Source of the DNA: Acidobacteria bacterium Ga0077553
Lineage (GTDB): Bacteria > Acidobacteriota > Terriglobia > Bryobacterales > Bryobacteraceae
DNA: 64,000 nucleotides
Direction: 5' to 3'
NCBI GenBank assembly: GCA_001464575.1
Contig: LNFE01000228.1
Coordinates: 1-64,000, forward strand
Shown here piece by piece: positions 5,262 to 52,869 of this stretch. The number at the start of each line of letters is the position of its first letter. Within the stretch, counting starts at the first letter, position 1. A program made the position numbers and the translations under genes. The notes under the pieces were generated by a model that was not told where the DNA came from, made no database searches, and saw only the letters and a program-made list of their open reading frames with translations.

Positions 5262-5933
5262 AATCGTTTCCAGGTCTTAGCGACCACCTCTTTCGCTACT
5301 CCCCCCACTCCGCCAGTCGAATGTCGGGAGTCTTCTTCAACAGGAGTACAAACGGGTCCACCTCGTGGAACGGTCTGCGTTTGAACTGGTGAGCCAACCA
5401 AACGCGGTTGGTGAGCATTTGGTTGCCTCAGTAAAACTCTAACTCTCCGTGGTCTTGCCTAGAGCATCGGAGCTGTCCGGTTGGGGTTCATTGCGATCAG
5501 CGAGACAGGTTCGCGTTCGCCGCTCGCACCCAGGGCCCATAATCCTTCAACGTCCGCCCGGAACCTAGCGAAACAGTCGACGAGATGCAAGCCGCCAGGG
5601 AGCGCTTTAGGGGTTGGCCCAATGTTGAGAGGAGCCATCATTCATCAGCTTCCATCGATGGATCTTCGCTTCGCGGGTCTGAACCCTAGCCTTTCGCGTC
5701 TTGCGGTTCCTCAAGTTGGGGCCGCCTGCTTTTTCTCAACGGTTGCAAGAGCGCAGGTTTGTTCGCCACCGTCTATTGCGTCGGCCAAACTTTCTCCATC
5801 ACGTCCCACTTTGCCTGAAGACGAAAATGGCGCTAGTGCTTCCCCATCTGCGGACTGCCGGTGAATACGGAATAGAGTTCCGGATTTATGGACGGGAGAC
5901 CGGCGGCCCAAGGTGATGGCTGACCGCCTCAAT
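5262..5933. other. Gene-poor stretch between island end and fdn operon
   Basis: No gene that I can support. Open frames exist on both strands (for example plus 5481-5864 and minus 5459-5641), but they lack ribosome-binding sites, recognisable domains and neighbours. Partial conservation on both strands could reflect a decayed repeat or insertion-element remnant. I could not identify one. Confidence 0.4.
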
Positions 5934-10484: not shown

Positions 10485-11723
10485 ATGAGCTTGACCGTTC
10501 GCATCCTCGCAGCGCTCCTCGTCGGCCTCGCCGGCGGCTTCCTCCTGGCTTCCGTGCAGCCTGGGGCCGTTCCAGCGGTCACCGCCACGACTGACGTCAT
10601 CGGCACACTGTGGCTCAACGGCATCCGGATGACCGTCATCCCCCTCGTCGTCGCGCTGCTTCTCTCCTCGGTCACTTCCGTCGCCGACCCGGCAACGCTG
10701 CAGCGGGTCGGCAGCCGCACCGGGCGCGTGTTCCTTTTCCTGATCATGGGAATCGTCGCGGTCACGATGGCCCTGGCCCTCACCGCCCTGCAGTTCTGGC
10801 CTCCCGCGCTAAGCCCGATTGCGAAAGCCGGGCCCGCCCTCGCTCCGCCTCCGCCCTTCTCGCAATGGCTGATCAGCCTGATCCCTGCAAACCCCCTGAA
10901 GGCGGCCACCGACGGCGCCATGCTCCCGCTCATTATCTTCACGCTGCTCGTCGCCTTCGCTCTCCTTCGTCTCCCTGTCGCACAGCGGCAACCGGTTGTT
11001 CAGCTCTTCCAAACGCTGGCCGACGTGATGCTCGTCATCCTCCGCTGGGTCCTGTGGGTGGCGCCGGCCGGAGTCTTCGCCGTCAGTCTTTCGCTCGCCG
11101 CCCGCCAAGGCCTTTCCGCTCTAGGCGCGCTCGCCTTCTATGTCGGCATGTTGGTCGCCATCGTCATCCTGATCACCATCGCTCTCTACGCCGTCGCCGT
11201 CTTCTGGTCCGGCATTCCTCTGCGCCGCTTCGCCGCCGCGCTCGCCCCCGCCCAGTCCGTCGCCGGCCCCACGCTCTCCTCGCTCGCCGCCCTGCCGCTC
11301 CTGGTCGATGGCGCTGAACGCATCCTCGGCTACCCGCGCGCGACAGCCGGCCTAGTGCTGCCCCTCACCGTCTCCATTCTCCGCCCGGCCGCGCCCGTCG
11401 CGCAGATCGTCGCGGCGCTCTTCACGGCCCAATGGAACGGCATCGTCCTCGTCCCCGTCGATCTGCTCACGCTCGGCGCTGTCGTTACCCTGATGAGCTT
11501 CGCCACCCCCGGCGTGCCCAACGCCAGCTTCCTCGTCATGATTCCCGTTTTCCAAGCGATCGGCCTGCCCATCGAAGGCATCGGCCTGATGCTCGCCGTC
11601 GATGTGTTTCCCGATTTCGCCAAAACCATCCTGAACGTTACCGGCCATCTCACGGCCCTCACCCTCATCCACCATGCGCCTGCTATTCCTCATCCTGCTG
11701 CTGAACCTGCCCCTCTCGGCTGA
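10485..11723 (+). CDS. Dicarboxylate/amino acid:cation symporter (SDF family)
   Basis: 412 residues, about eight to nine hydrophobic segments beginning MSLTVRILAALLVGLAGGF. The order of features matches the DctA/GltP (sodium:dicarboxylate) family: the LWLNGIRMTVIPLVVALLLSS motif in helix 2-3, an SLAALPLL serine-rich hairpin, and the late substrate-binding region VTLMSFATPGVPNASF. It takes up C4-dicarboxylates or acidic amino acids with cations; the exact substrate cannot be read. The ATG at 10485 gives a normal N-terminus, while the upstream in-frame extension overlaps fdnG. It is divergent from fdnG with 55 bases between them and overlaps the next gene by 50 bases. Confidence 0.85.
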   Translation: MSLTVRILAALLVGLAGGFLLASVQPGAVPAVTATTDVIGTLWLNGIRMTVIPLVVALLLSSVTSVADPATLQRVGSRTGRVFLFLIMGIVAVTMALALTALQFWPPALSPIAKAGPALAPPPPFSQWLISLIPANPLKAATDGAMLPLIIFTLLVAFALLRLPVAQRQPVVQLFQTLADVMLVILRWVLWVAPAGVFAVSLSLAARQGLSALGALAFYVGMLVAIVILITIALYAVAVFWSGIPLRRFAAALAPAQSVAGPTLSSLAALPLLVDGAERILGYPRATAGLVLPLTVSILRPAAPVAQIVAALFTAQWNGIVLVPVDLLTLGAVVTLMSFATPGVPNASFLVMIPVFQAIGLPIEGIGLMLAVDVFPDFAKTILNVTGHLTALTLIHHAPAIPHPAAEPAPLG

Positions 11724-12930
11724 GTTCCGCGCCGCCGTTGTCAAAGTCGACATCACGCCAGCCACGCCGAAGTGGCTCCTCGGCTACGCTGACCGCCAAT
11801 CCACCGGCGTTCACGACCCCATCCACCACCGTATCGTTGCCCTCGACGACGGACAGTCGAAGTTTGTTCTCGTCTCCACCGACCTCTGCCTCTTCTCCCC
11901 GTCTCTCTACGACGAAGCCGCCCGCCGCCTCCAAGCCGCCACCGGCGTCCCCGCCCTCAACTTCTGGTGGACCGTTACCCACACCCATTCCGCTCCCGAA
12001 ATCGGCCCGCCCGGCGTCTATGCCGTTCTTCTCAAGGGGCGCTCTCGCCATCCCGTCGACACCGAATACACCGAGTACATCGTGCAATCGCTCGTCTCCG
12101 GCGCGCAAAAGGCCCTCGCCCAACTCACCCCCGCCCGCCTTTCTACCGGCACCGGCATGTCCCTTGCGAACATCAACCGCCGCGCCCGCGACGTCGATGG
12201 GCGCATCTCGCTCGGTCTCAACCCCGACGGCCCCACGGACCGCCAGATCGGCTTGATCCGCCTCGAGAAGGCCGACGGCTCCCCCCTTGCCCTCATCGCC
12301 AACTACGCCATGCACGGCACCGTTCTCAACGGCCAGTTCCTGCAGATCTCGGGCGATGCCCCCGGCATCGTCGCCGCCTACGTCGAGCAGAAGCTCGGCG
12401 TCCCGATGCTATATATCAATGGCGCCGCGGGCGACCTCGCCCCCATCTACAGCGTCTACCCGGATCCGCGCAGCGGCCACCTCACCCAGTTCAACGTGCT
12501 TCTGGGCGACCGTATCCTCGCCGCCAACAGCAGCCTTCCCGCCTCGTCTCCCAACGTGAAACTGGCCGCCTACGAGCACTGGGTCGAAAGCCCCCGCAAG
12601 GCAAATACTGAATGGACGACGGAACTCCCCACCTACCAGCGAGGCGACCTCGTCCGGCTTCCCGTCCGCCTGCTCACCATCAACGACACCGCCATCTGGA
12701 GCGCGCCCGTCGAACTCTTCTGCGCCATCGCGCTCGAAGTCCGGCGCCAATCGCCCTTCCGGCATACGTTCTACTTCGGCTACACCAACGGCTGGATCGG
12801 CTACCTCCCCACCAAGGCAGGCTTTGCCGAAGGTGGCTACGAGCCCGCCACGTCCGTCTTCAGCGACCAGATCGAGGCCAACCTCACGGCTGGCCTCATC
12901 ACATTTCTACAAGGCTTACCCCGGCCTTAA
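11674..12930 (+). CDS. Neutral/alkaline ceramidase-like secreted hydrolase
   Basis: 418 residues. A signal peptide (MRLLFLILLLNLPLSA) is followed by FRAAVVKVDITPATPKWLLG, the hallmark start of the neutral ceramidase N-terminal domain. The zinc/active-site region VTHTHSAPEIGPPG and the GDAPG and INGAAGDLAP motifs are present. Neutral ceramidases cleave N-acyl sphingoid bases, but many bacterial members are shorter, lack the C-terminal domain and have unknown substrates, as here. Start overlaps the symporter end, so the two may be co-transcribed. Its stop overlaps the convergent TIM-barrel gene's stop. Confidence 0.8.
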   Translation: MRLLFLILLLNLPLSAEFRAAVVKVDITPATPKWLLGYADRQSTGVHDPIHHRIVALDDGQSKFVLVSTDLCLFSPSLYDEAARRLQAATGVPALNFWWTVTHTHSAPEIGPPGVYAVLLKGRSRHPVDTEYTEYIVQSLVSGAQKALAQLTPARLSTGTGMSLANINRRARDVDGRISLGLNPDGPTDRQIGLIRLEKADGSPLALIANYAMHGTVLNGQFLQISGDAPGIVAAYVEQKLGVPMLYINGAAGDLAPIYSVYPDPRSGHLTQFNVLLGDRILAANSSLPASSPNVKLAAYEHWVESPRKANTEWTTELPTYQRGDLVRLPVRLLTINDTAIWSAPVELFCAIALEVRRQSPFRHTFYFGYTNGWIGYLPTKAGFAEGGYEPATSVFSDQIEANLTAGLITFLQGLPRP

Positions 12931-47229: not shown

Positions 47230-47391
47230 TGCATTTTCTCCTAACCCTAACGCGCCAATTCCTTCGAAAACCGATCACGCGCCCTCGACAAAATTTTCGC
47301 CGCATGGCAGTGAGCCACGCGGCCCTCGCACGTTCGGGGGACCTCTGAAACGGACCGGCGGCCCTGGGCACAGTTCCATCGAGGTGACCCT

Positions 47392-49776
47392 ATGGCTAAG
47401 AAAGGACCGCAAGATCCGAACGCCCGCCGGCCCAAACCGGCCACAGAGAATGAAGACGCGACGCCCGAGGTCGCGGAGACCACCGATCCAACCCAACACA
47501 GCAAACTGGATCCTGGTCTGAGAATGATTGCCATGACCGCCGCCACGGAGATGGCGGAACTCGACTCCGAGTCGGCCTTCAGCGTCGCTGCGTCCACGGC
47601 AGCTCCGCCAGAAGTGAGCTTGTTCGTCCAGTTCACTGGCGACATTGCGGAGATCGAAAAGGCCGGATTCCAAACCCGCACCGTCGCTGGCGATGTCGCC
47701 TGCGGCGATATCGCTGTCAGCCAACTCGCCGCCCTCGAAGCCATCCCCTCCATCACCCGCATGGAAGTCTCGCGGGTGATGAACAACGAACTCGACCTCG
47801 CCGCCGCCGATGTCCGCGTCGCTCCGGTCCACACCGGGCCGCCGGGCCATCGCGGCGCCGGCGTCATCGTCGGCATCATCGACTCCGGCATCGACTATCG
47901 CCACCAGAGTTTCCGGGCGCCAGACGGCCGTTCCCGCATCCTCGCGATTTGGGATCAGGGCCTCGGCCGCGTTGGCACGGAAACCTCACCCGCCGGCTTT
48001 GGTTACGGCGTCGAATACCAGCAAGCGCAGATCAACACAGCGCTCGCCGCCGCCAACCCACTCGCCATCGTCCGGCATCAGGATTCGGCCGGCGCGCAGT
48101 TCCACGGCACCCACGTCACGGGTATTGCCGCCGGTGATGGCTCCGTCGCCGGACAAGGCCGCCCGGCGTTCACCTTCGTGGGGATCGCTCCGGAAGCCGA
48201 CATCATTGTCGTCGCTAACAACCGCGGCCGCGCGGCTGGCGAGCGCGGACTCGGCGACTCGGCCGATACCCTCGACGCCGTCCGCTATATCTTCAACTTC
48301 GCCCAGTCCCTCGGGCGCCCTGTTGTCATCAACCAGAGCCAGGGTGACAATGTCGGTCCGCACGACGGCACCAGCCTGCTCGAGCGTGGTCTCGACAACC
48401 TACTGGGCGGCGCCGGCCGGGCATTCGTGAAGTCGGCGGGCAACGAGGGCGCCCGCAACCGTCACGCCAGCGGCACGTTGACGGCCAGTGGCGTCCAGAC
48501 CGTCCAGTTCAATGTGCCTGGCGGAGTGCCGCAGGTCACCATCGATCTCTGGTATCGCGGCGCGGACCGCATCGGCGTGGCCGTCACTCGCCCTGGCGGC
48601 GTACCCACCGCCAACGTCAACCCACCCGCCTCCACGACCATCAATTTGCCGGGCGGCAACCAGTTGTTCATCGACTCCTCGCTCAACGACCCCGGCAACG
48701 CTGACAACCGTATCTTCATCACGATCTCCCGTGGTACCTCGGCCCAGGTCCAGTCCGGCAACTGGTCGCTGACCTTGCGTGGCAACACCATCTCCTTCGG
48801 CCAATGGGACGCTTGGATCCAACGGAACTCGGGCAGTCAGTTCCTGGCGCCCTTCGTGAACGCCGCGCGCACCATCTCCGTTCCCGGCACGGCGCGGGAG
48901 ATCATCACTGTCGGCAGCTACATTACCCGCGGAGCTGGCGTCGGCGCCATCTCCAGCTTCTCGAGTCTTGGACCAACCCGCGACGGCCGCCCCGCTCCCA
49001 CGCTCTCAGCGCCCGGACAAACACTCTTCTCCGCCAACGTCACCACGGCCGCCGATCAGTATCAAGGCATGATGGGTACCTCCATGGCCGCACCCATGGT
49101 GACCGGCGCGGTCGCACTCATGCTGCAACGCCGGCCCACGATGACCGCCGAGCAGATCCGCAACTGCCTCATCAGCTCCGCGCGATCGGATGCCAACACC
49201 GGCGCCACGCCGAACAACGCCTGGGGGGCGGGTAAGCTGGACGTTCAGGCCGCCTTCGCCTGCGCCGCCCCAGAGATCCGGCGTACCCTCCTGCCCCCGT
49301 GCACCATCCGGACGCTCACACCCTCCTGCACCCTCCGGACCGTTGCTCCACCGTGCAACATTCAGACCCTGGTGGCCTCGCAGTGCCTGCCCCGCACGGT
49401 GACTCCGCCTTGTGTGATCCAATCCGTCACGGCGCCTTGCCCCATCCAGACGCTGGTTGCCCCGTGCAACATTCAGACCGTCGCCCCGGCCTGCGGCTTC
49501 CAAACGCAGAACCCGGCCTGCTTCCCAACCCAGACGCTTTCCGCCGGATGTGGTGTGCTAGTGCCGAATCCCACCGTGGTCGTCAACCCGGGCACCAATC
49601 CCGCGGTCCTGACGGCTCGGTCAGGGCAAAGCGAGGCCACGGAGACTTGGCAGGCGGCAACCGCCAACGCGGATTGGACCGCCGATTGGTCCACCACCGC
49701 GCCGGAGAGCGGTCCGGCCGATCCTCCGGACGAAGACGGCATCATGTCCTTCTGGTACGGCAACCCCGGCTACTAG
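47392..49776 (+). CDS. S8 (subtilisin-like) peptidase with Cys/Thr repeat tail
   Basis: 794 residues, ATG preceded by GAGGTG. No signal peptide: the N-terminus is a polar, low-complexity region of about 45 residues. An inhibitor-like prodomain (VSLFVQFTGDIAEIEKAGFQ to about residue 125) follows. The catalytic triad is intact: Asp164 (GIIDSGIDYRH), His241 (FHGTHVTG) and Ser564 (GTSMAAPM). A jelly-roll-like insert lies between His and Ser, as in Csp-type subtilases. Residues about 632-720 form a repeat tail with ten Cys, and the last 70 residues are acidic. Kinase-like, HopA1-like and LanC genes follow at once, suggesting that this protein, or its tail, is their substrate or processing protease. 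Confidence 0.9.
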   Translation: MAKKGPQDPNARRPKPATENEDATPEVAETTDPTQHSKLDPGLRMIAMTAATEMAELDSESAFSVAASTAAPPEVSLFVQFTGDIAEIEKAGFQTRTVAGDVACGDIAVSQLAALEAIPSITRMEVSRVMNNELDLAAADVRVAPVHTGPPGHRGAGVIVGIIDSGIDYRHQSFRAPDGRSRILAIWDQGLGRVGTETSPAGFGYGVEYQQAQINTALAAANPLAIVRHQDSAGAQFHGTHVTGIAAGDGSVAGQGRPAFTFVGIAPEADIIVVANNRGRAAGERGLGDSADTLDAVRYIFNFAQSLGRPVVINQSQGDNVGPHDGTSLLERGLDNLLGGAGRAFVKSAGNEGARNRHASGTLTASGVQTVQFNVPGGVPQVTIDLWYRGADRIGVAVTRPGGVPTANVNPPASTTINLPGGNQLFIDSSLNDPGNADNRIFITISRGTSAQVQSGNWSLTLRGNTISFGQWDAWIQRNSGSQFLAPFVNAARTISVPGTAREIITVGSYITRGAGVGAISSFSSLGPTRDGRPAPTLSAPGQTLFSANVTTAADQYQGMMGTSMAAPMVTGAVALMLQRRPTMTAEQIRNCLISSARSDANTGATPNNAWGAGKLDVQAAFACAAPEIRRTLLPPCTIRTLTPSCTLRTVAPPCNIQTLVASQCLPRTVTPPCVIQSVTAPCPIQTLVAPCNIQTVAPACGFQTQNPACFPTQTLSAGCGVLVPNPTVVVNPGTNPAVLTARSGQSEATETWQAATANADWTADWSTTAPESGPADPPDEDGIMSFWYGNPGY
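49285..49557 (+). repeat. Coding repeat: ten Cys units in the tail of the S8 peptidase
   Basis: About nine imperfect units of roughly 9-11 residues with the consensus [AP]-x-C-x-[IL]-[QR]-[TS]-[LV]-x-x, for example PPCTIRTLT, PPCNIQTLVA and APCPIQTLVA. First Cys is residue 637, last Cys 720. Each Cys has a Thr or Ser four residues after it and therefore about four to six before the next Cys, spacing that would allow thioether rings after dehydration. Confidence 0.85.
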
Positions 49777-49785
49777 AGGAACCGC

Positions 49786-50709
49786 ATGATTCCCCAGGAA
49801 CTCGTCTCCTATCTCGCAACTGCGGGGCTTCTTTCGAAGCCCTGCAGTTGCCTGATCCTTCACGCAGTAGACCGCTCCAGTTCCCACTCCGTCGTCGAAC
49901 TTAAGCTTCGGAGTGGGGAACACTGGATCGTCAAACGAGCCCGAGAGCGCCGGGAGTCACCCGGCGCCCCCACCCTGGGCGCGGAGTTCGCCGTTTATGA
50001 ACTCGCCGCCTCGACCCCCGCCCTCGCCCGCCTGCTTCCAGAGTGCCTTCACCGCGACGAGGCTACCCAAACTCTCGTCGTCCGTGCTGCCGGGGAAGCG
50101 TATCGCCCTGAACCCGGTGGAGCGGCTGCCTTGGGCATCGATCTCGCGGCGCTCCACCGCGCCACGGAAGCCAATCTTCACCTGCCGATGCGCCGGCCCT
50201 GGATCCTGGATGTATTGGAGCCCTATGGCTTTCAAAATCCGGCCACCGGCGCCCTCATTCCAGATCGCTCCGCTGTGGCAGCTCGTCTGCGACTCCTCGG
50301 CGCGGCCATTGAAACCACCTGCCTCGTGCACAATGACTTGAAGTTCGATAACTGCGTCCAGCAGGACCGCGTCCGCCTGATCGATTGGGAGATCGCCGGC
50401 TCCGGCGATCCGGCCTGGGATGTCGCCGGCATCGTTCAAGACCATCTGAAACTGGCCCTGCAAGGCGCCGGCGGCCAGGAAGCCCTCGCGGCCTTCCTCC
50501 GCGCCTATCTGGATCACTACGCCCCTTCTGATCCTCGCGCCTTCCGCATGCGCCTTTCTGGACTTGCCGCCGTTCGCCTGCTGCAGAGCGCCCATGAAGT
50601 GGCTTTGGCGGGCGGCCCCGTCCCCATCGCGCGCCGCATGGCCGACCACGCGACTGGGCTGCTCAGTGCCCCCGAAAGCCTTTTCGCGGTCTACCGGAGC
50701 GCCGCTTGA
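49786..50709 (+). CDS. APH-like kinase, probable Ser/Thr dehydration kinase (LanK/TvaC type)
   Basis: 307 residues of the aminoglycoside-phosphotransferase/protein-kinase-like fold. The catalytic loop LVHNDLKFDN holds His182 and Asp184; the metal-binding LIDWEIAGSGDPAWDVA has Asp200. In class V lanthipeptide and thioamitide clusters a kinase of this family phosphorylates Ser/Thr of the precursor and a HopA1-like protein eliminates phosphate. Here that HopA1-like gene follows with a four-base overlap. It starts nine bases after the protease. Antibiotic phosphotransferase activity is unlikely in this setting. Confidence 0.8.
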   Translation: MIPQELVSYLATAGLLSKPCSCLILHAVDRSSSHSVVELKLRSGEHWIVKRARERRESPGAPTLGAEFAVYELAASTPALARLLPECLHRDEATQTLVVRAAGEAYRPEPGGAAALGIDLAALHRATEANLHLPMRRPWILDVLEPYGFQNPATGALIPDRSAVAARLRLLGAAIETTCLVHNDLKFDNCVQQDRVRLIDWEIAGSGDPAWDVAGIVQDHLKLALQGAGGQEALAAFLRAYLDHYAPSDPRAFRMRLSGLAAVRLLQSAHEVALAGGPVPIARRMADHATGLLSAPESLFAVYRSAA

Positions 50710-51536
50710 ACTTCCGCGAACAACTCTCCGGCGCCGCTCGCCTCGCGGCCGCGGTAGCGCCCGAGCTCCGGGCCGCGGCACTCTACGCGGAGTGGTACGC
50801 CCCAGCCCGCCGTGGCACAGCGCCGCGCCTCAGCCCGCCGGTCGCGCTGGCCCACTATCGCGCCGCCGATGCCAATGGCCTGCGCTTCACTTCCGGTTGG
50901 CAACCCGCCGGATGGGACCCGTCCTCTGGCCACTCGGTCGTCCGCCGCGGCGAACAGATGCGCATCATCCATCCCATCGACTTTTGCCCCGTAGGAGGCC
51001 AAGTGGCCGAGCGCACGGAGTCCACCGAACTGGCGGGCTGGTGGGCTGCGTTCGTCCCCCCCGCGCCGGAAGGTGAGGCCGCCGTCCGCGTCTATTGGGC
51101 CGTGCAACCGGAGGCCGTCTTCCGCCTCATTCGCGCCATTACCGAACAGATGCCCCCATCCGCTCGCTACGCCGTCAAGGCGCCGCTCGACCTCCACCGC
51201 TGCCTTCGGCCGGACGGCGTCGTGCTCTATCTCGAACGTCACCGCTGGAACGATCTCGCCGCGGCTCTCCACTCCATCGCAGAGTGCGCGGCGCCGTGGC
51301 TCCACGCTTCGCATCCTGCATTCACGTTGCCGCTCGCCCCGGGCATTTCGCTCGCGGAGGACGTGCCCGGCGAAAGCTTCGGCGGGCAACGCTGCCGTTG
51401 GCTTGCCGAAGCCTTTACCAGTCACACGGACGAATCGGCGATGCGGGCCGCGGCGTTGAGTCTGCTGGAGCAACGAGGCGTCAGCCTGGAAACGCCGTAT
51501 CGAAATCCCGGCAGCCAACAGGAGTACCCATGGTGA
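50706..51536 (+). CDS. HopA1-family protein, probable phospho-Ser/Thr lyase (LanY/TvaD type)
   Basis: 276 residues. VRVYWAVQPEAVFRLIRAITE, ARYAVKAPLDLHRCLRPDGVVLYLERHRW and SFGGQRCRWLAEAF follow the pattern of bacterial HopA1-like proteins in RiPP clusters (LxmY, TvaD). These eliminate phosphate from phosphorylated Ser/Thr to give dehydro-amino acids, related to OspF-type lyases. The recognisable Lys/His residues in YAVKAPLDLHR fit a lyase active site; this is inference from family patterns. It is coupled to kinase and LanC genes on both sides. Confidence 0.75.
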   Translation: MNFREQLSGAARLAAAVAPELRAAALYAEWYAPARRGTAPRLSPPVALAHYRAADANGLRFTSGWQPAGWDPSSGHSVVRRGEQMRIIHPIDFCPVGGQVAERTESTELAGWWAAFVPPAPEGEAAVRVYWAVQPEAVFRLIRAITEQMPPSARYAVKAPLDLHRCLRPDGVVLYLERHRWNDLAAALHSIAECAAPWLHASHPAFTLPLAPGISLAEDVPGESFGGQRCRWLAEAFTSHTDESAMRAAALSLLEQRGVSLETPYRNPGSQQEYPW

Positions 51537-52585
51537 ACCCTGTCGCCGCCGAAATGGCCGCGAGGATTTTGGCCCTGCCGCCGCCCGCATCCGGGGACTT
51601 GTACGAGGGCGCGGCGGGTATCGCCGTCTTCTTCGCTGAACTCGCCGGACGCGACTCGTCGTATCGGGCGCCGGCCCTGCGTTTTACCGAACAGGCCGCC
51701 GCGTGGGCCGCGGCGAACGGCGCCTTGCCCGGTTTCCATGGCGGCGCTCCGGGAGCCCACTGGGCCGTCCGTCGAGCCTGTCAACTCCTCGCTGACTCCC
51801 CGCCAGCCGTGCCCGTTCTCGAGCCCGGTCCCGGGCGCGGCGATATCGTGGCGGGTGATGCTGGAACTCTGATTGCATTCATAGCGCTCGGTCTGCGGCA
51901 GCAGGCGGCAGTCATCGCTCATCGCATCCGCTCGACCGGCGGCGAGACGGCGTTGGGCCGCGCTTGGCCTGCCAGTCATCCCGCGCCCGGCCTCGCCCAC
52001 GGCGCCTCGGGCGTAGCGTGGGCCCTGCTCGAGGCGGACCCCGGCCATCCTTCAGCCCATGAGGGCTTCCTCTTCGAACGCGCCTGGTTCGATCGGCCGG
52101 CGCGCACCTGGCGGTCGAATCAGCCACCGCACGGAACGGTGCCGCTCTCCTGGTGCCACGGGCTTACCGGCATCGCCCTTACGCGTCTCCGGGCGTTCGT
52201 CCTCACCGGGCGCCCCGAGTGCGGTGCAGAGGCTGCAGTTGCCGCCGCCTGGCTGTCTGCTTCCGCCGAGCGAGTTCTCGCCGGGAGGCCCGAGGCCTGG
52301 GAAGAGCGCAACAGTTCCGTCTGCCACGGGATCGCCGGCACGGTCGATGCTCTGCTGTATGCCGGACAAATCCTCGCGGATACGAGGTACATTCAATCGG
52401 CGCAAAGGCTCTGGTCCGCCGCGATCGCCACCGGCACATGGCTCTGCGGCACGGAGGATCAAACGCCCGACCCCGGCTTTATGCTGGGCTACGCAGGCAT
52501 CGGGCTGATGGCGCTCCGGGTTGAAGCGCCGGAGGTCACGCCGCCCCTGGGCCTCTGGCCCACCGGCTACTCGACATCCGAGTAG
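51530..52585 (+). CDS. LanC-like lanthionine cyclase
   Basis: 351 residues, ATG with AGGAG upstream. Alpha-toroid GxxG repeats are visible (YEGAAGIA, LAHGASGVAWALL, SWCHGLTGIALTRL, SVCHGIAGTVDALL, LGYAGIGLMAL). The zinc ligands Cys209, Cys265 and His266 and the catalytic His157 of LanC enzymes are all present, so it should be able to add Cys thiols to dehydro-residues. At about 350 residues it is slightly shorter than NisC (about 415). Overlaps the HopA1-like gene by seven bases; its end overlaps the convergent propeptide-like gene by 19 bases. Confidence 0.88.
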   Translation: MVNPVAAEMAARILALPPPASGDLYEGAAGIAVFFAELAGRDSSYRAPALRFTEQAAAWAAANGALPGFHGGAPGAHWAVRRACQLLADSPPAVPVLEPGPGRGDIVAGDAGTLIAFIALGLRQQAAVIAHRIRSTGGETALGRAWPASHPAPGLAHGASGVAWALLEADPGHPSAHEGFLFERAWFDRPARTWRSNQPPHGTVPLSWCHGLTGIALTRLRAFVLTGRPECGAEAAVAAAWLSASAERVLAGRPEAWEERNSSVCHGIAGTVDALLYAGQILADTRYIQSAQRLWSAAIATGTWLCGTEDQTPDPGFMLGYAGIGLMALRVEAPEVTPPLGLWPTGYSTSE

Positions 52586-52869
52586 TTAGTTGGCTCCTCG
52601 CCCGGCGATTCCATGTACAGCGGAGCCGAAGCTTCCACCGACAAGACAAAGGCCTCATCCGTAAGTACAGGCAAGACGGCCGGATCGGCGTCGGCGGTGA
52701 GAACGTCCCCCGCCAGCGAACGGACGCGAACGCCCAAATCCGCTAACCGCGAGAGTTCCGCATCACTCGGTTCCGCCCGCAGCCGCAGCATCAGCCCGAC
52801 GGAATCCGGGAGATTGTCCGAAGTCAATAAGTGCCGGGCCGGTGCAGAGAGTTTTGTAAGATCGGGCAT
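52567..52869 (-). CDS. Free-standing subtilisin propeptide-like protein (possible inhibitor)
   Basis: 100 residues with GGAGG before the ATG. Residues about 25-85 (SVGLMLRLRAEPSDAELSRL, RVRSLAGDVLTADADPA, LSVEASAPLY) follow the same pattern as the prodomain of the nearby S8 peptidase (VSLFVQFTGDIAEIEKAGF, RTVAGDVACGDIAVSQLAAL, MEVSRVM). Propeptides of this kind fold the protease and inhibit it. A separate copy would be a cognate inhibitor, or a stand-alone leader-type peptide. It is convergent with the lanC gene. Confidence 0.7.
   Translation of the reverse strand: MPDLTKLSAPARHLLTSDNLPDSVGLMLRLRAEPSDAELSRLADLGVRVRSLAGDVLTADADPAVLPVLTDEAFVLSVEASAPLYMESPGEEPTNYSDVE

Follow-up and report, generated by a model that had tools for sequence, protein, structure and literature searches.

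A subtilisin-like protease with a Cys/Thr repeat tail as the putative substrate of class V lanthipeptide-type enzymes in an acidobacterium

Background

Which molecule do lanthipeptide-type enzymes modify when no small precursor gene stands beside them? The question is raised by a four-gene cassette in the acidobacterial contig LNFE01000228.1, of which positions 1 to 64,000, the whole stretch of DNA analysed, are from here on called the window (contig C228 of genome G000 in the labels of the analysis); the nearest named relative genome is Candidatus Sulfopaludibacter (Acidobacteriota, Bryobacterales). The cassette encodes a subtilisin-like (S8) protease, a LanK-type kinase, a HopA1-like lyase of the LanY type and a LanC cyclase (Table 1), and the protease ends in a tail of Cys- and Thr-containing repeats. 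An earlier description of the locus, made from the sequence alone (the original prediction), proposed that this tail is the substrate of the three enzymes. The comparisons reported here, namely the phylogeny of the cassettes, the way in which the Cys of the tail track LanC and the search for separate precursors, support the proposal, and the protease's own tail is considered the probable substrate of kinase, lyase and LanC.

Lanthipeptide precursors are usually regarded as short peptides. A mining study of class V kept only open reading frames (ORFs) of less than 110 residues (PMC9486802), and a lanthipeptide precursor fused to a protease was not found described in the open-access full-text literature, a scope outside which most subscription journals fall. 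The set of kinase, HopA1-like protein and LanC is characteristic of class Vb lanthipeptides (PMC12291118, PMC12328550) and the kinase-HopA1 pair has been described from many phyla (PMC7794033). Dehydration has been demonstrated for the pair CaoK/CaoY (PMC9486802) and likewise for LxmK/LxmY.

Catalytic residues and the repeat tail

The tail of the protease contains ten Cys (residues 637-720), one per unit, and in nine of the ten units a Ser or Thr is found five residues before the Cys (position Cys-5), in agreement with the ten Cys units and regularly placed Thr/Ser of the original prediction. When the 112-residue tail stretch was shuffled, none of 5000 permutations reached nine at any of 18 offsets, a statistic that shows regularity and not function since a tandem repeat gives regularity by descent. 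The segment that follows the repeats (residues 726-794) is, judging from its sequence, a possible follower to which the enzymes could bind; its last 20 residues differ at one position between the window and the nearest relative locus, L008, whereas the preceding stretch varies.

In L008, where the lyase is 82% identical, the gene order is the same and the 100-residue ORF of the opposite strand (Table 1) is also present. Its tail has nine units, one whole nine-residue unit fewer than in the window, and all of the aligned tail Cys are kept (9/9). The ratio of nonsynonymous to synonymous substitution rates (dN/dS) between the two loci is about 0.17 in the tail compared with about 0.05 in the catalytic part; the tail is thus under constraint, although it changes faster than the enzyme.

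All four genes gave Pfam scores exceeding the family cut-offs. The kinase motifs HxDxxxxN and DWE are intact, and the NCBIfam model LxmK gave a match with an expect value (E) of 3e-8 that does not reach the cut-off of the model. In the lyase R128, K158, R168 and Y175 parallel, in this order, the catalytic R187, K219, R229 and Y236 reported for CaoY (PMC9486802); the spacing of the last three is identical while the first two are 30 residues apart compared with 32 in CaoY. R128, K158 and R168 are found in 37/37 cassettes of Acidobacteriota and Y175 in 35/37, and a comparison of the lyase family profile (A2) with the LxmY structure (9dk1, chain B) gave E 8e-33. LanC has the zinc residues H157, C209 (in WCHG) and C265 and H266 (in CHG), and the protease has D164, H241, S564 and N351; the residues named for protease, LanC and kinase are those that we take to be catalytic. 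The genes are separated by 9 bp (protease and kinase) or overlap by 4 bp (kinase and lyase) and 7 bp (lyase and LanC), which suggests that they are translated as one unit. Families, motifs and spacing thus agree with the tight packing, the zinc-complete LanC and the split dehydratase plus cyclase of class V that had been read from the sequence at the outset.

Tail composition and LanC

A search of contigs with a single HopA1-like protein as query matched only L008, and profiles were used thereafter. The Pfam family HopA1 matches 9 of 396 genomes sampled across the phylum, and a profile of the cassette lyases matches 23 of 200 genomes in the family of the window and 3 of 193 in the class of genome G587. 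The cassettes examined number 41, of which 37 are kinase-lyase cassettes in Acidobacteriota and four are located on plasmids of other phyla; a fifth of the latter kind, L096 of Runella, was left out. The HopA1 match L044 in G345, where no kinase-lyase cassette is present, was rejected and enters no count.

Among the 34 cassettes that could be scored, 28 have LanC and a candidate substrate with at least three Cys, six have neither LanC nor more than one Cys, and exceptions are lacking (Fisher 7e-7; 3e-5 for the 27 against four that remain without L036, L079 and L075). Substrates were assigned by position only in L036 and L079, the contig of L039 ends within LanC, and absence of LanC in L010, L073, L040, L043, L075, L078 and L079 applies to the locus. 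The seven cassettes not scored are L067 and L069 (LanC but no precursor found), L077 (LanC, contig edge), L078 (no LanC and no substrate found) and L097, L106 and L107, whose substrates lie outside the analysis.

The same relation can be followed among the tailed proteases. In L045, from the one-contig genome G587 of another class, the tail has 12 Cys and LanC is present, with Thr or Ser at Cys-5 in nine of the 12 cases (1/5000 shuffles as good), while the tails of L010 and L073 consist of Thr-Pro-Arg repeats with no Cys and no LanC was detected in these loci even at E 1. In the catalytic region the proteases of L010 and L073 share 55-58% identity with the L045 protease, L010 about 56%, and their kinases and lyases belong to the same clade. 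If the tails are modified, L045 and L010 are a natural pair of related proteases on which the roles of dehydration and cyclisation can be told apart.

Phylogeny of the cassettes with tailed proteases

In a 37-row tree based on the concatenated sequences of both enzymes, kinase and lyase, the five cassettes with a tailed S8 protease (window, L008, L045, L010 and L073) form one clade with support 99/98. The clade is also found with the kinase (95/89) or the lyase (96/98) alone and with other phyla added (100/99), it remains when any one S8 lineage is dropped (98/95 to 100/99), and it holds with four other divergent rows dropped. When the five labels were shuffled 500 times no shuffle gave fewer than three changes, compared to the single change observed, and with sister pairs collapsed 0/500 shuffles reached one change. 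Three genera in two classes of Acidobacteriota are covered by the clade, with conserved gene order. An S8 gene was detected in six of the 41 loci, the five just named and a Deinococcus cassette outside the clade, and two profile searches for additional tailed cassettes matched 6/191 and 2/185 genomes, all already known.

As controls, S8 homologues lacking kinase, lyase and LanC nearby (sought within 3-5 kb around each) were analysed in 16 loci, L015-L019 and L081-L091, of which L084 and L089 were left out; L017 is truncated by the end of its contig, and in the genomes of L088 and L089 the three enzymes are encoded elsewhere. All 14 readable proteases have 0 to 3 tail Cys and none has the repeat of the tailed cassettes, and these loci were rejected as further tailed cassettes.

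Search for a separate precursor

Beside the cassettes of the window and L008 no small Cys/Thr ORF was found on the cassette strand. On the minus strand a frame with four Cys runs over the start of the protease gene (47247-47444) and has a counterpart in L008 (4560-4739); it looks like antisense noise. Two profiles built from candidate substrates of other cassettes, one for small precursors and one for a large leader domain, gave no match at E 1 in the five genomes with tailed proteases (G000, G069, G029, G734 and G587). Three further genomes per search served as positive controls and matched at E 1e-29 or better, which shows that the searches function and not how far they reach since these genomes had supplied rows of the profiles; the only match held out from them, a second copy in G412, gave E 3e-39. 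The statement of the original prediction that no separate small precursor gene is visible holds for the cassette strand nearby in both loci and, for these two profiles, for the available sequence of the five genomes.

A cassette on a Deinococcus plasmid (L095) is arranged differently. It consists of an unannotated ORF of 201 amino acids with five Cys and, by eye, the large-leader pattern, a kinase, a HopA1-LanC fusion, an S8 protease of 472 amino acids that is tail-less, and an ORF of 84 amino acids, which is 11% identical to the 100-residue protein of the window and may be a propeptide. A tailed protease together with a separate precursor was not seen in the 41 loci scanned, and for this reason the Deinococcus arrangement is read as the unfused state; the core would then have been fused to the maturation protease in the acidobacterial lineage, a direction of change that we infer.

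Proposed pathway and alternative explanations

We propose that the cassette is a lanthipeptide pathway similar to class Vb, whose precursor is attached to the protease as a C-terminal fusion. The LanK-like kinase would phosphorylate Thr and Ser of the tail repeats, the LanY-like lyase would remove the phosphate to leave dehydro-residues and LanC would link each of these with the Cys that follows at a distance of five residues; about nine or ten (methyl)lanthionine rings of the T-x4-C type would result. These steps follow from the studied enzyme families and are predicted for this tail by analogy. In the cytoplasm the protease might be kept inactive by its prodomain and perhaps also by a separate propeptide-like protein; thereafter it would presumably cut itself or the tail, and the ringed tail would be set free either whole or in units. 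Self-release by the protease is given somewhat less than even chances: it is a guess, supported by analogy with the gene arrangement in Deinococcus and with NisP, which cleaves off a C-terminal part of itself (PMC10885120). Modification of the tail, the pattern of its rings, the role of the inhibitor and the release are all put forward here as predictions.

Several observations weigh against the tail as substrate. The genomes G000 and G734 are 92.9% and 87% complete, and a precursor of a type other than the two profiles would escape the search. The genome of the window holds a second kinase-lyase cassette, L043 (G000:C9), with its own precursor of 157 amino acids (5417-5890) that ends in a Thr-rich stretch with one Cys; this cassette, which has no LanC in the locus and is also found in G069 (L075), makes cross-talk possible. 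In Deinococcus the S8 protease stands beside a separate precursor and can there be a mere neighbour or a maturation protease. The branches of the tailed clade are long (1.4-1.6), which leaves room for long-branch attraction, and the relation between LanC and Cys comprises only three phylogenetically independent pairs (3/3 agree, p 0.25), with the threshold of three Cys set after inspection of the data. Between the proteases of the window and L045, weak BLAST similarity continues past the catalytic part into the tail, so the Cys-5 register was possibly inherited and is not independent evidence. The protease of the window has neither of the leader types found in other candidate substrates, which leaves its recognition by the enzymes unexplained; no cleavage motif was seen and no exporter was found among the six neighbouring genes.

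That the S8 protease merely matures a precursor encoded elsewhere, with the tail as an unrelated repeat, would fit both the Deinococcus cassette and NisP, an S8 protease that removes a lanthipeptide leader (PMC10885120). It is nevertheless an improbable account, as neither precursor profile matches in the five genomes, no small Cys/Thr ORF adjoins the two cassettes on their strand, the tail Cys track LanC and S8 homologues without adjoining enzymes have no such tails. The proposal that the tail is modified but never released, and forms a thioether-cross-linked, protease-resistant stalk or domain of a working protease, is a variant of the tail-as-substrate reading and overlaps with it. A uniform repeat with a changing number of units (ten and nine), candidate substrates of protein scale with up to 40 Cys in other cassettes and the lack of both cleavage motif and exporter would suit such a stalk, but simple hydropathy indicates no signal peptide, which makes an anchor outside the cell unlikely, the small precursors of many related cassettes look ordinary and the Deinococcus protease is tail-less; on balance a permanent stalk is rather unlikely.

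The enzymes could also act on the tail in the tailed clade by phosphorylation and dehydration only, the Cys serving disulfides or metal binding. L010 and L073, whose loci have kinase and lyase but no LanC and whose tails are Thr-rich and free of Cys, point in this direction, as do the Thr-rich repeats of L040, likewise without Cys or LanC; yet the window, L008 and L045 keep a zinc-complete LanC in the operon and only their tails have Cys, and we regard it as highly improbable that rings are not the point. Still harder to credit is that the regular tail is a by-product of tandem duplication and its neighbourhood a coincidence: the differing unit number in the window and L008 does indicate that the repeat duplicates or deletes, but the gene order is conserved in three genera of two classes, the tailed cassettes form one clade and the tail is under purifying selection.

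Should the tail prove to be modified, a single molecule can serve as both precursor and maturation protease, substrates of a whole range of sizes have so far escaped notice, and long strings of nearly identical thioether rings would become available in genetically encoded form. A more far-reaching picture is held only tentatively, at clearly less than even probability: the S8 protein would be carrier, maturation protease and source of ten thioether rings in one polypeptide, regulated by a propeptide-like protein, within a wider and apparently undescribed acidobacterial branch of class V that acts on protein-scale repeats (up to 40 Cys); Thr-repeat proteins without Cys would be among its substrates and, where LanC is lacking, would turn into dehydrobutyrine chains.

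Relation to described systems

The stand-alone LanK (PF01636), the stand-alone LanY (PF17914) with Arg/Lys/Arg/Tyr and the LanC with Cys, Cys and His ligands, all in one operon, are shared with class Vb (SmoA/SmoC; LanK, LanY and LanC). A small separate precursor with an N-terminal leader, another class Vb feature, was found neither beside the cassette on its strand nor with the two profiles in the genome of the window; the known precursors are peptides with such a leader, whereas the only candidate in the window is the tail of a protease of 794 amino acids. The system would for this reason work like class Vb rather than be a plain member of it, and from the sequences it appears to be a variant of class V lanthipeptide biosynthesis with a new substrate. 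The term undescribed system in the original prediction can be kept for the substrate, in which the novelty lies, but not for the enzyme trio, which is already known as class Vb.

Class Va (cacaoidin with CaoK/CaoY, lexapeptide with LxmK/LxmY) and the thioamitides also have a kinase and a HopA1-like lyase, and the nearest solved structures are those of LxmKY (9dk1-9dk3). Class Va has LanD and LanX and no LanC, while the window has LanC and neither LanD nor LanX was detected by Pfam among the four cassette genes and six neighbours. The catalytic part of the protease has its best sequence match and its closest solved relatives (9sj6, 4i0w) in CspB-type germination subtilisins, from which the cassette context differs and on which we know of no Cys/Thr tail. 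Leader peptidases of the NisP/EpiP type are likewise S8 proteases in lanthipeptide-type cassettes, but NisP is an anchored, secreted enzyme whose substrate is a separate peptide (PMC10885120), whereas the protease of the window has no hydrophobic N-terminal stretch indicating a signal peptide (maximum KD19 0.67, simple hydropathy only) and itself carries the Cys/Thr units.

Candidate substrates of the related cassettes

A candidate substrate could be assigned in 33 of the 37 acidobacterial cassettes, usually just upstream of the kinase, and three kinds recur. Small precursors are 80-180 amino acids long and most have an N-terminal FLxGxI-type and a C-terminal GWSxPP-like motif (L009, L059, L061, L063-L066, L068, L071, L072 and L076), which suggests enzyme contacts at both ends. 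Large proteins have up to 40 Cys, and seven of them (L012, L037, L038, L039, L060, L074 and L080; by eye also L095) share a leader domain followed by Cys/Thr-rich stretches; three that were tested gave no Pfam match, and a model of the leader domain with a predicted local distance difference test score (pLDDT) of 67 had no credible match in PDB. The third kind is the S8 protease with a Thr-rich tail, present in the five cassettes of the clade. The substrates of L040, L041 and L042 lack the leaders shared by the others.

Whether the tail always accompanies the three enzymes had been left as a question by the original prediction, which named homologous cassettes with an ordinary precursor and a tail-less protease as a refutation. 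The outcome is mixed: a Cys tail goes together with LanC in the window, L008 and L045, but a separate substrate without a protease is the rule (29 of 34 scored cassettes; 25 of the 28 with LanC), and Deinococcus has both a precursor and a tail-less S8 protease.

Other features of the cassette and related loci

Table 1. Features of the cassette, in positions of the window.
Feature	Position	Strand	Comment
S8 (subtilisin-like) protease, 794 amino acids	47392..49776	+	Pfam PF00082 Peptidase_S8, E 6e-39
S8 prodomain	about 47572-47841	+	part of the 794-residue protease
S8 catalytic part	about 47842-49257	+	part of the 794-residue protease
S8 tail, residues 628-725: ten units of ~9 residues, roughly T-x4-C-x2-[QR]	49273..49566	+	proposed enzyme substrate
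C-terminal acidic/aromatic segment, residues 726-794 (69 residues), ending WYGNPGY	49567..49773	+	possible follower segment
LanK-type (APH-fold) Ser/Thr kinase	49786..50709	+	PF01636 APH, E 2e-14
LanY-type (HopA1-like) phospho-Ser/Thr lyase	50706..51536	+	PF17914 HopA1, E 3e-20
LanC cyclase, zinc site complete	51530..52585	+	PF05147 LANC_like, E 3e-29
100-residue protein, likely subtilisin-propeptide fold	52567..52869	-	converges on LanC

The 100-residue ORF of the minus strand lies within the region of the original prediction, where it was left unnamed. It is 89% identical in L008, and its AlphaFold model is a compact alpha/beta fold (pLDDT 82.7) for which the top 15 matches in PDB include at least nine S8 propeptides or propeptide-containing S8 chains, led by Tk-SP, PC1/3, prosubtilisin, CspB and the BPN' prosegment, none with E below 0.039. 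Compared with S8 prodomains a profile gave E 2.5e-4 (probability 43%) and pairwise BLASTP E 0.15. A search of 19 genomes found the ORF in the window and G069 only, together with one weak match (E 0.07), so that the evidence of wider kinship comes from profile and fold. Just downstream of the S8 gene, L020, L021, L082 and L083 have small ORFs with a comparable pattern. A natural guess is that the protein is a separate inhibitor or folding helper of the protease.

The six genes surrounding the cassette, encoding a histidine kinase, a DUF1549/DUF1553 protein, a DUF1501 protein, a DPP-IV-like peptidase, a TonB-type outer membrane protein and one protein without match, have no obvious link to it.

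The related loci gave some further observations. L067 and L069 have full sets of kinase, lyase and LanC with no precursor seen adjacent, and their precursors may be encoded elsewhere. Just upstream of the large candidate substrates of L038 (4608-5615) and L041 (4501-5385, oriented) a papain-like protease was recognised by eye, possibly another maturation protease. In L040 (G511:C1) the minus strand encodes, at 11510-12514, a protein of 334 amino acids made of PTTTAVGEEQG-type repeats with no Cys. A HopA1-kinase fusion and a gene that looks ATP-grasp-like by eye are close to it, and the locus has no LanC; if modified, the repeat protein would become rich in dehydrobutyrine.

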